A stretch of DNA of 64,000 bases, taken from NCBI GenBank assembly GCA_018713325.1, contig DVFJ01000008.1, positions 1 through 64,000 on the forward strand, in the 5' to 3' direction. Origin of the DNA: Candidatus Onthenecus intestinigallinarum. GTDB lineage: Bacteria > Bacillota > Clostridia > Christensenellales > Aristaeellaceae. A program made the position numbers and the translations under genes. Shown here piece after piece: positions 34,721-53,890 of the stretch (position 1 is its first letter; each line of letters starts with the position of its first letter). A model generated the notes under the pieces. It made no database searches. It was not told the DNA's origin and worked only from the letters and a program-made list of their open reading frames with translations.

Positions 34721-34762
34721 ATTTTGTCAGACGGATGGAGGGAAGGCGCGCATGCGCCGCAT

Positions 34763-36757
34763 ATGAACAGGACGATCGGCATTCTGGCCCACGCGGACGC
34801 GGGCAAGACGACGCTCAGCGAGCAGATTCTCTGCCTGGCGGGCGTGCTGCGCGCGCCGGGACGCGTGGACCATCAGGACGCGTTCATGGATTCGGACGCG
34901 ATGGAGCGCCGCCGGGGCATCACGATCTTTTCCGGCCAGGCGGTCTTTGCGCTTGGCGAAAACCGCTATACGTTGCTGGACACGCCGGGCCATGCGGATT
35001 TTTCCGCCGAGATGGAGCGCGCGCTGCAGGCGCTGGATGCGGCGATCCTCGTCGTCAGCTGCGTGGAGGGCGTGCAGAGCCACACGGAGACGATCTGGCG
35101 GCTGGCGCGCCGGGCCGGGCTGCCGGCCTTCTTCTTCCTGAACAAGACGGACCGCGTGGGCGCGGATGTGGACCGCACGCTCGCCGCCATCCGCAAGCGC
35201 CTGACGCCGGACTGCGCGCTGTTTGGCGAAGGGGCGGCGCAGGGCCGCTTTTCCGACGCGGAGCGGGAGGAGATCGCCGCGCGCGACGAGGCGCTGCTGG
35301 AGCGCTACCTGGAGGATGGCGCGACGGACGCGGCATTCATGGAGGCTGCGCGGCGCGAGGTGGCGCAGGGACGGCTGTTCCCGGCGTTCAGCGGCGCGGC
35401 CCTGCGCGGCGAGGGCGTCGAGGCGCTGCTGTATGGCCTGGACGCGCTGTTGACGACCGACTACGCGTCGCGCCTGGACGAGCCGTTTGCCGCGCACGTG
35501 TTCCGCGTGCGCCGGGACGGCCAGGGGGCGCGGGAGACGCACATGAAGGTGCTCGCGGGCAGGCTGCGCGTCAAGGACGAGGTGCAGGCGCTGACGGCGG
35601 ACGGCGGGACGGCGCGTGAGAAGGCGCACGAGCTGCGCGTCTATCACGGCGAGCGCTACCGTTCCGTTGCACAGGCCGGCGCGGGCGAGGTCGTCGCAGT
35701 GACGGGGCTGGCCCTGCCGCTGCCCGGCGACCGCATCGGCGACCGGCCCGCCCGCGCGCGGTTTGAGACGCGGCCGATGCTGCGCGCCCGTGCGCTGTTC
35801 GGCCCGCCGCTGCAAAAGGACGCCGTGCTGGCCGCGATGCGCCAGCTGGAGCAGGAGGATCCCGCGCTCTCGGTCGGCGTCGACCCGGACACGGGCGAGC
35901 CGGAGGTCAGCGTCATGGGCCCCATCCAGCTGGAGGTGCTTCAGGAGCTGCTGCGCACGCGCTTTGCGATGGATGTGCGCTTTGGCGACAGCCGCATCCT
36001 GTACCTGGAGACGATCGCAGCGCCGGCGATGGGCGTGGGGCACTACGAGCCGCTGCGCCACTATGCGGAGGTGCATCTGCGCCTGACGCCCGGCCCGCGC
36101 GGCAGCGGCGTGACATTCCAAAGCGTATGCCCGGTGGATGTGCTGGCGCTCAACTGGCAGCGGCTGATCGGGACGCATGTGCTGGAGCGTGCGCATCGCG
36201 GCGTGCTGACCGGCGCGCCGCTGACGGACGTGTGCGTGACGCTTGTGACGGGGCGCGCGCACCTGAAGCACACGGAGGGAGGCGACTTCCGCGAGGCGAC
36301 GTATCGCGCGATCCGGCAGGGGCTGATGGGCGCGCAGAGCGTGCTGCTCGAGCCGGTGTGCCGTTTTGCGCTGAGCGTGCCCCAGGGCGCGCTGGGCCGC
36401 GTGCTCGCAGACCTGACGCGCCTGCGCGCGGACTTTGAGGCGCCGCAGCAGACGGATGAAATGGCGTCGATCGAGGGCCTGTGTCCTGCCTCGACGTTCA
36501 TGCGCTATCCCGCGGCGTTCACGGCGGCGACGCACGGGCGCGGCACGGTCTCCTACGCGCTGTCGCACTATGCGCCCTGCCACGACGCGGAACAGGTCGT
36601 TGCGGCGGCGGCATACAATCCGCTGGCCAGCCTCGCGGATACGCCGGATTCGGTGTTTTGCAGCCATGGTGCGGGCTTCAACGTCAGCTGGCGCGAGGCG
36701 CCCGCCTGGGCGCACTGTCCGCCGCCGGAGCGGGAGACAAGACCGTTTGTGCCGTAA
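34763..36757 (+). CDS. TetM/EF-G-like translational GTPase
   Basis: GILAHADAGKTTLSEQIL, RRRGITIFSGQAVF, LLDTPGHADFSAEMERAL, FFLNKTDRVGAD, EGGDFREATYRAIRQGL. Confidence 0.88.
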   Translation: MNRTIGILAHADAGKTTLSEQILCLAGVLRAPGRVDHQDAFMDSDAMERRRGITIFSGQAVFALGENRYTLLDTPGHADFSAEMERALQALDAAILVVSCVEGVQSHTETIWRLARRAGLPAFFFLNKTDRVGADVDRTLAAIRKRLTPDCALFGEGAAQGRFSDAEREEIAARDEALLERYLEDGATDAAFMEAARREVAQGRLFPAFSGAALRGEGVEALLYGLDALLTTDYASRLDEPFAAHVFRVRRDGQGARETHMKVLAGRLRVKDEVQALTADGGTAREKAHELRVYHGERYRSVAQAGAGEVVAVTGLALPLPGDRIGDRPARARFETRPMLRARALFGPPLQKDAVLAAMRQLEQEDPALSVGVDPDTGEPEVSVMGPIQLEVLQELLRTRFAMDVRFGDSRILYLETIAAPAMGVGHYEPLRHYAEVHLRLTPGPRGSGVTFQSVCPVDVLALNWQRLIGTHVLERAHRGVLTGAPLTDVCVTLVTGRAHLKHTEGGDFREATYRAIRQGLMGAQSVLLEPVCRFALSVPQGALGRVLADLTRLRADFEAPQQTDEMASIEGLCPASTFMRYPAAFTAATHGRGTVSYALSHYAPCHDAEQVVAAAAYNPLASLADTPDSVFCSHGAGFNVSWREAPAWAHCPPPERETRPFVP

Positions 36758-36955
36758 GGGGGAACGCGTCCGGGATTCCTGGAGGACTGAGAAGGAAATG
36801 TGCCGCTGTTCGTCCGGAATAGGTGAAGGACAATTCGCAAGGCCGGGCGCGCTGAAAAAACGGATTTTGTAAAACCGGCGTTGAACGTGAAACCCGACAG
36901 TATGCGATCGTCGTGCCGGAGAAGAAGCGCTGACCGGTTCGGCGCGTGCAAGCCA

Positions 36956-36990
36956 ACAGCCCTGCGCCACAGAGAAAGGCGCAGGGCTGT
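36956..36990 (-). terminator. Hairpin downstream of the lar cluster (possible terminator)
   Basis: ACAGCCCTGCGCC/GGCGCAGGGCTGT, weak U tract. Confidence 0.45.
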
Positions 36991-37017: not shown

Positions 37018-38355
37018 TTACCGTTCGCCCTCCTGCTCGACGGCGTGGGCGGCGTCGGGGAAGGAGAGGTTCGCCTCGCGCGCGATGCGGGCGACGTCGT
37101 CGGACTCGGGCTTCTCGCGGCGCACGCCGTATCCCTCCGAGCGCTTGAAGCGCACGGGCCCAAAGCGCGTGGGGCGCGTCTCCTGCGTGCGCGTGGAGAG
37201 AACATAGCGTTCCTGTACGCAGCAGCGCACGCCCAGCGTCGTGGTCTGCTCCAGCATCAGGCGCGCAAAGCGCGGCGCTTCGTCCTCCGGGCAGATGCAG
37301 CCCAGCAGCACGCCGGGGCGGTTCTTCTTCATGAACAGCGGGGCGGTGTATACATCCAGCGCGCCGGCGGAGAGCAGGGCCTCCGACGCGAAGGCGACGG
37401 CCTCCGGCGTCATGTCGTCCAGATTGCAGCGCAGCTCGGCGACGCGCGGCTGCAGGTCGTCATGCTCGCCCAGGAACGCGCGCAGGCAGTTGGCGACGGG
37501 AAAATCCTTCTTGCCCATGCCGTAGCCGATCCGCTCCGTCGCCATGGCCTCCATCGGGCCAAAGGCGTCGACGAAGTATTTGAGCAGCGCCGCGCCCGTC
37601 GGCGTGCACAGCTCGCCCTCGACGCGGCCCGCGTTGCAGGGCACGCCGCGCAGAATGGAGGCCGTCGCGGGCGCCGGTACCGGCAGGATGCCGTGCGCAC
37701 AGCGCACGTGACCATAACCTGTGCTGACGGGCGAGGCGATCACGCGATCCGGCGCGATGCGCTCCATCAGCATCGACACGCCGACGATGTCGGCCACGGC
37801 GTCCAAGGAGCCGACCTCGTGAAAGTGGATCTCCTCCACCGGCCGGCCGTGCGCCTCAGCTTCCGCCTGCGCGATCAGCGCATAGACCGCCAGCGCGTCG
37901 CGGCGGACGGTGTCGGAGACGGGAAGCCCTGCAATGATCGATTCGATCTCGCGCATGCCGGCGTGGTGATGATGCGCATGGGCATGTTCATGCGCATGCT
38001 CGTGCTCATGTTCATGTTCATGCGCATGCTCGTGCTCATGGGCATGGACATGCTCGTGCATATGCTCATGCGCATGCTCGTGCGCATGGGGATGGACGAA
38101 CGCATGCGGGGATACGTGCGCGCCGTCGCCATGGACGTCGAGGCTTTCCTCTGCCTCGCCGTGCACGGTGACGGACATGTGGATGCCGCTGATGCCGCAC
38201 TTGGCGGAGGGCTCCATCTCCACGCGCACGCCGGGCAGGCCCAGGGCGTTCATCTCCCGCACGAAGGCGTGCGGATCGTCCAACAGGCCGGCGAGCGCGC
38301 CCAGAAGCATGTCGCCCGACGCGCCCATCGCACATTCCAGGTAGAGCAGTTTCAT
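37018..38355 (-). CDS. larC: Nickel-pincer cofactor biosynthesis protein LarC with His-rich insertion
   Basis: MKLLYLECAMGASGDMLLGALAGL, HFHEVGSLDAVADIVG, CTPTGAALLKYFVD, LRCNLDDMTPEA; (A/E)H-repeat about residues 84-131. Confidence 0.95.
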   Translation of the reverse strand: MKLLYLECAMGASGDMLLGALAGLLDDPHAFVREMNALGLPGVRVEMEPSAKCGISGIHMSVTVHGEAEESLDVHGDGAHVSPHAFVHPHAHEHAHEHMHEHVHAHEHEHAHEHEHEHEHAHEHAHAHHHHAGMREIESIIAGLPVSDTVRRDALAVYALIAQAEAEAHGRPVEEIHFHEVGSLDAVADIVGVSMLMERIAPDRVIASPVSTGYGHVRCAHGILPVPAPATASILRGVPCNAGRVEGELCTPTGAALLKYFVDAFGPMEAMATERIGYGMGKKDFPVANCLRAFLGEHDDLQPRVAELRCNLDDMTPEAVAFASEALLSAGALDVYTAPLFMKKNRPGVLLGCICPEDEAPRFARLMLEQTTTLGVRCCVQERYVLSTRTQETRPTRFGPVRFKRSEGYGVRREKPESDDVARIAREANLSFPDAAHAVEQEGER

Positions 38356-39107
38356 TCCTCGATTCCCCCCATCGTATTGATCCGGTGCGCAAGGAAACCT
38401 GCGCCGAAGCCGTTGTCGATATTGACGACGCTCACGCCGCTGGCGCAGGCGTTGAGCATGGACAGCAGCGCCGCCACGCCGTGAAAGCTCGCGCCATAGC
38501 CGACGCTGGTCGGGACGGCGACGACGGGACAGTCGACCAGGCCGCCGATGACGCTGGCCAGCGCGCCCTCCATGCCCGCCACCGCGACGACGACGCGCGC
38601 GCGCATCAGGTCGTCCACGTGTGAGAGCAGGCGATGTAGTCCGGCGACGCCCACGTCGTACAGGCGCGTCACATGGCTGCCGAGCGTCTCGGCGGTCAGG
38701 GCGGCCTCTTCGGCGACGGGCATGTCGCTGGTGCCGCCCGTGGCGACGACGACGTTGCCGCGCAGCGCAAGCGGGCGCGGCGCCGCGACGGCGATGCGCG
38801 ATACGGGGTCATAGCGGGCCTCGACGCCCGCGCACACGGCCGCGCCCTGCTCAGGCGACAGGCGCGTGATCAGGATGTTCGTCGAGCCCGCGGCGATCAG
38901 GCGCTGCGCGATGCCGACGATCTGCTCGGGCGTCTTGCTCTGTCCGTAGATGACCTCGCCCACCCCCTGGCGCAGCGCCCGGTGGTGGTCGATCTTGGCA
39001 TATCCCAGGTCCTCAAAGGGCTGCGCGCGCAGGCGCAGCGCGGCCTCCTCGGGCGAGAGCGCGCCTGAGCGCACCTGTTGCAGAATCGAAAGGGTGTCCA
39101 AACTCAA
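38352..39107 (-). CDS. larB: Nickel-pincer cofactor biosynthesis protein LarB
   Basis: VVVATGGTSDMPVAEEAALTAETLG, VGVAGLHRLL, AVAGMEGALASVIGGLVDCPVVAVPTSVGYGASFHGVAALLSMLNACASGVSVVNIDNGFGAG. Confidence 0.95.
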   Translation of the reverse strand: MSLDTLSILQQVRSGALSPEEAALRLRAQPFEDLGYAKIDHHRALRQGVGEVIYGQSKTPEQIVGIAQRLIAAGSTNILITRLSPEQGAAVCAGVEARYDPVSRIAVAAPRPLALRGNVVVATGGTSDMPVAEEAALTAETLGSHVTRLYDVGVAGLHRLLSHVDDLMRARVVVAVAGMEGALASVIGGLVDCPVVAVPTSVGYGASFHGVAALLSMLNACASGVSVVNIDNGFGAGFLAHRINTMGGIEE

Positions 39108-39889
39108 TCCCTCGCTTTCAGGTCGAGCAGCACGGCGTCAAAGACGCCGTCCAGTGCGCTCAGGATCTGTGTGCGCTGTGCGACGGCGCGTTCCAGCTGG
39201 GCGGCAGGCAGCTGAATGCGCGCCGCGCTGCCGTACAGCCGCACGCGCAGGTCGGAAAAGCCCATCGCGCGCAGCGCATCCTCCGCGCGCTCCACACGCG
39301 CGAGCGCCTCCGCCTCAATGGCCACGCCCGCAGGCACGCGCGTGGCCAGGCACGCATAGGCGGGCTTGTCCCACGTGAACAGTCCGGCCTCGTGCGAGAG
39401 CGCGCGCACCTGCGCCTTGGTCAGGCCGGCTTCGCGCAGCGGGGAGCGCACGCACAGCTCGCGCAGCGCGCGCATGCCGGGCCGGTCCGAGGCGTCGTCG
39501 GAGGCGTTGGTGCCGTCGATCATCAGGTCGTAACCGTCGGCTTTGGCCGCGCGGAGCATCTGCCCGAACATCGCGCGCTTGCAATGATAGCAGCGGTCGG
39601 CCGGGTTGGCGCGCACCGTATCCAGCGCCAGGATGTCCAGCGGCACGACGGTCATCTGCGCGCCGAGCTCCCGCGCAAGGCGCTGCGCGTCCGCAAGCTC
39701 GAAGGCGGGCTGAAACGCGGTGTGCACGCAATAGGCGCGCACGTCACAGCCGAAGCGCCGGGCGGCATGGAGCAGGTATGCGGAGTCCGCGCCGCCGGAG
39801 AACGCCAGCGCCGCGCGCGGATGCTCGTGGAAAAAGGCCGAAAGGCGCGATTCGGCTGCGCGCGTGGCCGCGTCGATGGGATGGAGCAT
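39104..39889 (-). CDS. larE: LarE-type ATP-dependent sulfur transferase
   Basis: ALAFSGGADSAYLLHAA (PP-loop), NPADRCYHCKRAMF, DGTNASDDASDRPG, CLATRVPAG. Confidence 0.94.
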   Translation of the reverse strand: MLHPIDAATRAAESRLSAFFHEHPRAALAFSGGADSAYLLHAARRFGCDVRAYCVHTAFQPAFELADAQRLARELGAQMTVVPLDILALDTVRANPADRCYHCKRAMFGQMLRAAKADGYDLMIDGTNASDDASDRPGMRALRELCVRSPLREAGLTKAQVRALSHEAGLFTWDKPAYACLATRVPAGVAIEAEALARVERAEDALRAMGFSDLRVRLYGSAARIQLPAAQLERAVAQRTQILSALDGVFDAVLLDLKARD

Positions 39890-51009: not shown

Positions 51010-53244
51010 TTACATCGCCTCGTGGAACGTGCGGCGGATGACCTCGCGCTGCTGCTCGCGCGAGAGCTTGACGAAGTTGACCGCGTAGCCGGAGACGCGG
51101 ATGGTCAGGTTCGGATAGTTCTCCGGGTGCTCATAGGCGTCCTGCAGCAGCGCGCGGTTCATGACGTTGACGTTGATGTGGTGCGCGCCGCGGCCGAAGT
51201 AGGCGTCCAGCAGCGTGCACAGGTTGCGCTCGCGCGCCTCGGGCGTCGGGCCCAGCGCGTCCGGCACGATGGAGAACGTGTTGGAGATGCCGTCGCGGCA
51301 GTCCGCATAGGGCAGCTTGGCCACGGAGTTGAGCGAGGCGGCCGCGCCGCACAGCTCGCGCCCGTGCATGGGGTTTGCGCCCGGCGCGAAGGGCTCGCCC
51401 TGCTTTCTGCCGTCGGGCGTGGCGGCCGTCTTTTTGCCGTAGACGACGTTGGAGGTGATCGTCAGCACCGACAGCGTGTGCTCCGCGCCGCGGTAGGCCG
51501 GCGTCTTGCGCAGCTCCCGGATCATCTCCTGCACCAGGCGCACGGCGATGCCGTCCACGCGGTCGTCGTCGTTGCCGAATGTGGGGAAGTCGCCCTCGCG
51601 CGTGAAGTCCACGATGTAGCCGTCCGCGTCGCGCACGGGCCGCACGCGGGCGTAGCGGATGGCGCTCAGCGAGTCGGCCAGCACCGACAGCCCCGCCACG
51701 CCGAAGGCCATGTAGCGGTGCACATCCGTGTCGTGCAGCGCCATCTGCGTCTTTTCGTAGGCGTACTTGTCGTGCATGTAGTGGATGACGTTCATCGTGT
51801 TCACATACAGCTCGCACAGCCACGTGCGGTAGGCCGCAAAGCGCTCGTACACGCGCTCAAAGTCCAGCACGTCGCCGTCCATCACGTCCATGCGCGGGCC
51901 GATGTCCAGGCCCGAGAGCGTGTCGTGCCCGCCGTTGAGCGCCAGCAGCAGCAGCTTGGGCAGGTTGCACCGCGCGCCGAAGAACTGCATCTCCTTGCCC
52001 AGGCGCATCGCCGACACGCAGCAGGCGATGCCGTAGTCGTCGCCGTACAGCGGGCGCATGAGGTCGTCGTTTTCATACTGGATGGCGCTCGTCTGGCAGG
52101 AGACGCGCGCGCAGTAGCGCTTGAACGCCTCGGGCAGCGCGCGCGCGTAGAGCGCGGTCAGGTTCGGCTCGGGCGCGGGGCCGAGGTTGTGCAGCGTGTG
52201 GAGCATGCGGAAGGCGTTCTTCGTCACCAGCGTGCGCCCGTCCTCGCCCATGCCGCCGACGCTCTCGGTGATCCACATGGGATCGCCGCCGAACAGCTCG
52301 TTGTACTCGGGCGTGCGCAGGTGGCGGGCCATGCGCAGCTTCATGACGAAGTCGTCCATCAGCTCCTGCGCGCGCTCCTCGGTCAGCGTGCCGCGCGCCA
52401 GGTCGCGTTCGATGTAGATGTCCAGGAAGGTCGACACGCGCCCCAGCGACATGGCCGCGCCGTTCTGCTCCTTGATGGAGGCCAGGTAGCCGAAGTACGT
52501 CCACTGGATGGCCTCCTGCGCGGTGGCGGCCGGGCCGGCGATGTCGATGCCATAGAGCGCGGCCATCTCCTTCGTCTTTTGCAGGAAGGCGATCTGCTGG
52601 AACAGCTCCTCGCTCTGGCGGACGGTCTCGTAGTCCATCGTGCGCCGGCCCAGGGCGCGCTTGTCGCGCTGCTTCTCCTCGATCAGGCGGTCGATGCCGT
52701 AGAGCGCCACGCGCCGGTAGTCGCCGATGATGCGCCCGCGGCCGTAGGCGTCCGGCAGGCCCGTGATCACGCCAATCTTGCGCGCGCGGCGCATGTCGTC
52801 CGTGTAGACGCGGTAGACGCCGTCGTTGTGCGTGGTGCGGTAGAGAAACTCATCCTTGAGCTTGGGCGACATCTCGTAGCCGTAGGCGCGGCAGGCGCCC
52901 TCGGCCATGCGCATGCCGCCGAAGGGGTTGACGCCGCGGCGCAGCGGAGCCTCGGTCTGCAGGCCCACGATCAACTCCTCGTCCCGGTCCAGGTAGCCCG
53001 GCGCGTAGTTGAGCAGGCTCGTGGCCACGTCCGTATTGATCGACAGCACGCCGCCGCGCGCCTGTTCTTCCCTTTGCAGCGCGTGCAGCTTGTCCATCAG
53101 GCGCGTCGTGCGCGCGGTCGGCCCGCACAGGAAGCCCTCGCCGCCCGTGTAGGGCGTGTAATTCCGCTGAATGAAGTCGCGCACGTCGATGCGCTCCTGC
53201 CAGACGCCGGGGACAAAGCCCTCGTATGCCGGATGATTGGCCAT
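51010..53244 (-). CDS. pflB: Formate C-acetyltransferase (pyruvate formate-lyase)
   Basis: [50 protein letters not shown], adjacent CC (IACCVSAM), glycyl-radical motif [14 protein letters not shown]; trimmed to internal ATG 53244. Confidence 0.97.
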
Positions 53245-53278
53245 GACGGTCACCTCGTTACATTGCTGCCGGGAATGC

Positions 53279-53308
53279 AAAAAGGGCAATCCCAGCGCGG
53301 GATTGCCC
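53279..53308 (-). terminator. Riboswitch-controlled intrinsic terminator in pflB leader
   Basis: Minus strand GGGCAATCCC-GCGCT-GGGATTGCCC-TTTTT, upstream of the pflB start. Confidence 0.85.
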
Positions 53309-53374
53309 AGACGGTCGGCATTTACGCCCCATGCTCCCCCGCGGTTGCCCGCGTGAAATCCGTCAGTCACATGA
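53304..53374 (-). ncRNA. ZTP (pfl motif) riboswitch aptamer
   Basis: Minus strand CATGTGACTGACGG...CGCGG-GCAA-CCGCG-GGGGAGCATG...CCGTCTGGGCA, matching remembered conserved GUGACUGRCGG / GGGGAGC / CCGYCUGGGCA elements. Confidence 0.9.
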
Positions 53375-53383
53375 AGCTTCATC

Positions 53384-53412
53384 AGTATATCAGACGCACG
53401 GCGCGTTGTCAA
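53384..53412 (-). promoter_or_regulatory. Promoter of pflB
   Basis: Minus strand TTGACA (53412-53407), 17-bp spacer, TATACT (53389-53384). Confidence 0.85.
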
Positions 53413-53890
53413 TGGCGCAATTGCGCCCCTCGAGCGCGAGCAGGAAGCGCTTCTTGTCCAGCCCGCCCGCATAGCCGGTCAGGCCGCCGCCCGTGCCGAC
53501 GACGCGATGGCAGGGGATGAGCAGGCTGATGGGGTTGCGCGAGACCGCCGCGCCCACGGCGCGCGCGCCCGCGCCCATCGCCCGGGCGATGTCGCCATAG
53601 GTCGTGATCTGCCCATAGGGGATGGCGCACAGCCGCGCCCACACCGCGCGCTGAAACGGCGTGCCGCCGGGCGCGATGGGCAGGTCCATCGCCGGCGCTT
53701 CGCCGCGGAAGTAGCGCTCCAGCCAGCCTGCGGCCCGCGCAAAGACGGGCAGCGCGTCGTTCCAGGCGGGGTCGCGCAGCCCCGCGGCAAAGTATTTTTG
53801 TCCCTCGAACCACAGCCCCGTGATGCGTTCGCCGTCGCTGGCGAGCGTGACGGGCCCCAGCGGGGTGGAGAGCTGCGTCGCATAGCGCAT
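53390..53890 (-). CDS. ogt: Methylated-DNA--[protein]-cysteine S-methyltransferase
   Basis: [68 protein letters not shown]. Confidence 0.96.

Follow-up and report, generated by a model that had tools for sequence, protein, structure and literature searches.

The window, by which we mean the whole 64,000-nt stretch of DNA analysed, carries on its minus strand a pyruvate formate-lyase gene (pflB) preceded by a leader of approximately 134 nt, which begins at a predicted transcription start near 53378 and ends at the pflB ATG (53244). The features of this locus are listed in Table 1. The pflB product scored 1116.5 bits against TIGR01255 (cut-off 994.2) and the pflA product 241.1 bits against TIGR02493 (cut-off 231.75). 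An earlier note on this DNA had named pflB as the target, with pflA after it on the same strand, and both scores support this.

Table 1. Positions of genes and leader elements at the pflB locus (window coordinates).
Feature	Position	Strand	Basis
Sigma-70-type promoter, TTGACA-N17-TATACT, extended -10 (TG)	53384..53412	-	Promoter scan; same-genus conservation
ZMP/ZTP riboswitch aptamer RF01750, full length	53298..53380	-	Covariance-model match
Helix P1 (53377-53369 with 53334-53326), encloses P2	53326..53377	-	Aptamer-alone fold; covariation in 33 and 72 sequences
Pseudoknot, GACGG (53364-53360) with CCGUC (53314-53310)	53310..53364	-	33-sequence alignment
Helix P2, CGCGG-GCAA-CCGCG	53340..53353	-	Fold and covariation
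Helix P3, UGCC/GGCA; loop bears the pseudoknot strand	53304..53320	-	Fold and covariation alignment
Intrinsic terminator, 10-bp stem and UUUUU; 5' arm has GGGCA in common with P3	53279..53308	-	Hairpin scan and fold
pflB, pyruvate formate-lyase (formate C-acetyltransferase), 744 aa	51010..53244	-	TIGR01255; Pfam PFL-like and Gly_radical
pflA, pyruvate formate-lyase activating enzyme, 226 aa	50316..50996	-	TIGR02493

The consensus promoter overlapping the end of ogt was found as the earlier note had described it. It showed 11 of 12 consensus matches with TG before the -10 element, and the scan yielded one such promoter against 0.1 in shuffled sequences. The -35 element falls within the last part of ogt, and the -10 element starts directly past the ogt stop codon. 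The same hexamers and spacing were observed in two loci of the same genus, L019 and L013; at L013, ogt is several hundred bases off and the promoter is still kept, indicating that it does not arise from the coding sequence of ogt. As the note had pointed out, the element is hidden in the ORF track: the mechanical ORF begins at 53472, upstream of the riboswitch, and reads straight through it. The start at 53244 agrees with the protein profile and with the relatives. The likely true start of pflB is accordingly fixed there and the leader is now correctly annotated, whereas a longest-ORF gene call would absorb it.

The sequence blocks previously quoted as hallmarks of the ZTP (pfl) class were all present, and the minus strand over 53412-53244 read exactly so. 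The proposed covariance-model search of the minus-strand leader gave a significant match to RF01750 (ZMP-ZTP, Rfam) of 59.9 bits (E=3.2e-7), against a curated gathering cut-off of 39 bits, and the match covered model positions 1-86 of 86. This was the sole Rfam match across the whole window; on the aptamer stretch itself, other families gave just two sub-threshold chance matches on the opposite strand. It was also the single RF01750 copy in the genome, the search having found no second ZTP element elsewhere in the assembly (approximately 87.5% complete).

Structure prediction on the isolated aptamer gave all three helices, P1, P2 and P3. The pseudoknot between J1/2 and the P3 loop was beyond the reach of the folding program used and was supported by comparison of 33 related sequences, in all of which (33/33) it was paired; three of its five pairs had changed on both sides. 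For the whole structure, the covariation score of these 33 sequences was 0.407, compared with 0.198 after shuffling and at most 0.181 when slid. P1 and P2 varied on both sides of the helix in the 33 sequences as well as in a set of 72, whereas covariation in P3 says little because this helix is nearly invariant. The 72 distinct sequences, gathered by a model built in the present analysis, agreed with the structure, although their alignment had been fitted to it. When the full leader to the start codon was folded, an alternative predicted fold disrupted P1; this is the equilibrium fold predicted for the longer RNA and has no bearing on co-transcriptional folding.

The element was present in 34 of 150 related genomes. 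Among the 40 copies examined, most preceded pflB, two preceded pflA-pflB, and the others had purE or an IMP cyclohydrolase-like gene downstream. When the 80 pflB loci nearest to that of the window were retrieved from the public genome collection, the aptamer was found upstream in 72, nearly always no more than about 200 bases from the gene; these loci were picked by similarity to the window's pflB and do not amount to a full survey of pfl genes. Weak matches (E values of 0.02 and 0.07) accounted for two of the 72, yet they lay at the same position. Could the element be a chance resemblance, namely a GC-rich hairpin region together with an unrelated terminator? The window is GC-rich and the energy of the aptamer fold by itself was unremarkable (z -0.94), but the covariance-model match, the covariation and the conservation before pflB leave this reading a negligible probability, and it was ruled out. 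The same evidence supports the assignment to the ZTP/pfl class.

The ZTP riboswitch before an IMP cyclohydrolase-like gene (PF07826) was seen at L116 of the same genus (G001:C3:3241253-3241332) and at L017 of the same order. The NCBIfam archaeal-type purO models scored far under their cut-offs on these two genes, and PF07826 had no match in the window's own genome.

Downstream of the aptamer, a terminator of the sequence GGGCAAUCCC-GCGCU-GGGAUUGCCC-UUUUU was observed. Its 10-bp stem is perfect and its energy was -18.9 kcal/mol, as against -7.9 for shuffled sequences. This energy was matched by 3 of 500 shuffles of the downstream stretch of this copy, so for the single copy the aptamer match and conservation carry most of the weight. 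When the terminator half was added to the folded sequence, P3 was lost and the hairpin formed in its place, so that terminator and aptamer are mutually exclusive in the predicted folds. It had been proposed that the terminator reuses the conserved CUGGGCA segment. Overlap with the aptamer does occur, at GGGCA (53308-53304), of which GGCA belongs to P3, but the preceding CU lies outside the stem.

Hairpins with the 5' arm on GGGC recurred in most of the relatives with differing stem sequences. As a looser terminator criterion had been passed by 42% of shuffles, hairpin energy against shuffles was used instead; 30 of 40 leaders reached -12 kcal/mol or lower, and most of these recurrent hairpins beat every one of their shuffles. 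L005, L014, L029, L116, L121 and L124 were among those that scored poorly because the test starts at the CYGGGC motif; terminators such as theirs reach deeper into the pseudoknot or further upstream.

Known members of the class show a comparable arrangement. Weinberg et al. (2010) reported that terminators overlap the pfl motif and that pfl is among its commonest targets, and set out the logic linking formate, formyl-THF and purines (PMC2864571). The name of the fold comes from its association with pyruvate formate-lyase genes, and it acts as a transcriptional ON switch; to make the terminator, nucleotides of P3 pair with residues further downstream (PMC7337938). The strength of the terminator with its perfect stem, and the predicted full-leader fold, which takes in the region ahead of the start codon, would also suit a real aptamer whose hairpin is mainly a constitutive attenuator, or an element acting on translation, with ZTP not switching transcription. 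This is very improbable, since in most relatives the terminator's 5' arm and P3 share the same stretch, and ligand gating of this arrangement has been shown for other members (PMC10085676, PMC7337938). The previously predicted ON switch with an overlapping terminator is supported by the hairpin scan, the folds, the recurrence in relatives and the published descriptions of the class.

Compared with the RF01750 class, the element is alike in its full-length match, P1/P2/P3, pseudoknot, conserved core, pfl target and overlapping terminator, and shows just ordinary sequence variation (GC-rich, with a short 5-nt P1-P3 linker). The ZMP riboswitch of Thermosinus carboxydivorans is likewise a transcriptional ON switch with P3 nucleotides pairing with downstream terminator residues (PMC7337938), and differs in organism and sequence. 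In the pfl ZTP riboswitch of Clostridium beijerinckii, P3 and the pseudoknot undergo strand displacement; there, as here, the terminator begins to form on the 3' strand of P3 and P3 gives way to it, but it runs on through the pseudoknot, whereas the stem in the window ends at GGGCA, the edge of P3 (PMC10085676). This end point is the only visible peculiarity of the element. It is conceivable, though rather doubtful, that the switching threshold or kinetics differ from those of C. beijerinckii, the terminator of this genus sparing the pseudoknot; if true, this would amount to fine-tuning inside the class and no new mechanism.

Taken together, these findings indicate with high confidence that the leader element belongs to the ZTP/ZMP (pfl) riboswitches and controls pflB-pflA as a transcriptional ON switch, the direction of its response being predicted; no evidence counting against this was found in the analysis. 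Sequence, structure, covariation, the in silico exclusion of folds and the gene identities are what the analysis shows, and we infer ZMP/ZTP binding, the response direction, the start site and the physiology. RNA polymerase would initiate at the 5' edge of P1, and transcription of the aptamer would follow. If ZMP/ZTP were absent, GGGCA would be drawn out of P3 by the later half of the terminator, which would then form and end the transcript before pflB. When 10-formyl-THF is low, ZMP and ZTP would accumulate, bind and stabilise the P3-pseudoknot fold, and with this fold held the polymerase would proceed into pflB-pflA. That pflB is switched on under low 10-formyl-THF is suggested by the literature on the riboswitch class.

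The window contains, at 37018-39107 on the minus strand, a gene for a nickel insertion protein (PF01969) adjoining one for an AIR-carboxylase-like protein; the pair is reminiscent of LarC and LarB in the synthesis of the nickel-pincer cofactor. Pfam gave no match at E 1e-5 for the open frames at 34727-36970 (747 aa) and 39104-39889 (261 aa), both minus. A long opposite-strand frame overlaps the former, so minus may not be its coding strand. A 673-aa protein encoded at G000:C26:34591-38463 (L032:595-2616, minus) is a second glycyl radical enzyme; it matched PFL2-3 and other glycyl radical families, fell below every NCBIfam cut-off and was without a ZTP element.

The riboswitch lies upstream of a one-carbon gene, and the genome carries one fhs and one purH, which complete the route from formate through 10-formyl-THF to purines; no ZTP element was detectable at either gene. 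More PFL would give more formate, which Fhs would load onto THF, and purine synthesis would be restored. The element is an ordinary copy of a known riboswitch class in its best-known setting and leaves knowledge of that class unchanged; for this uncultured Clostridia lineage, it would tie formate production to folate status.
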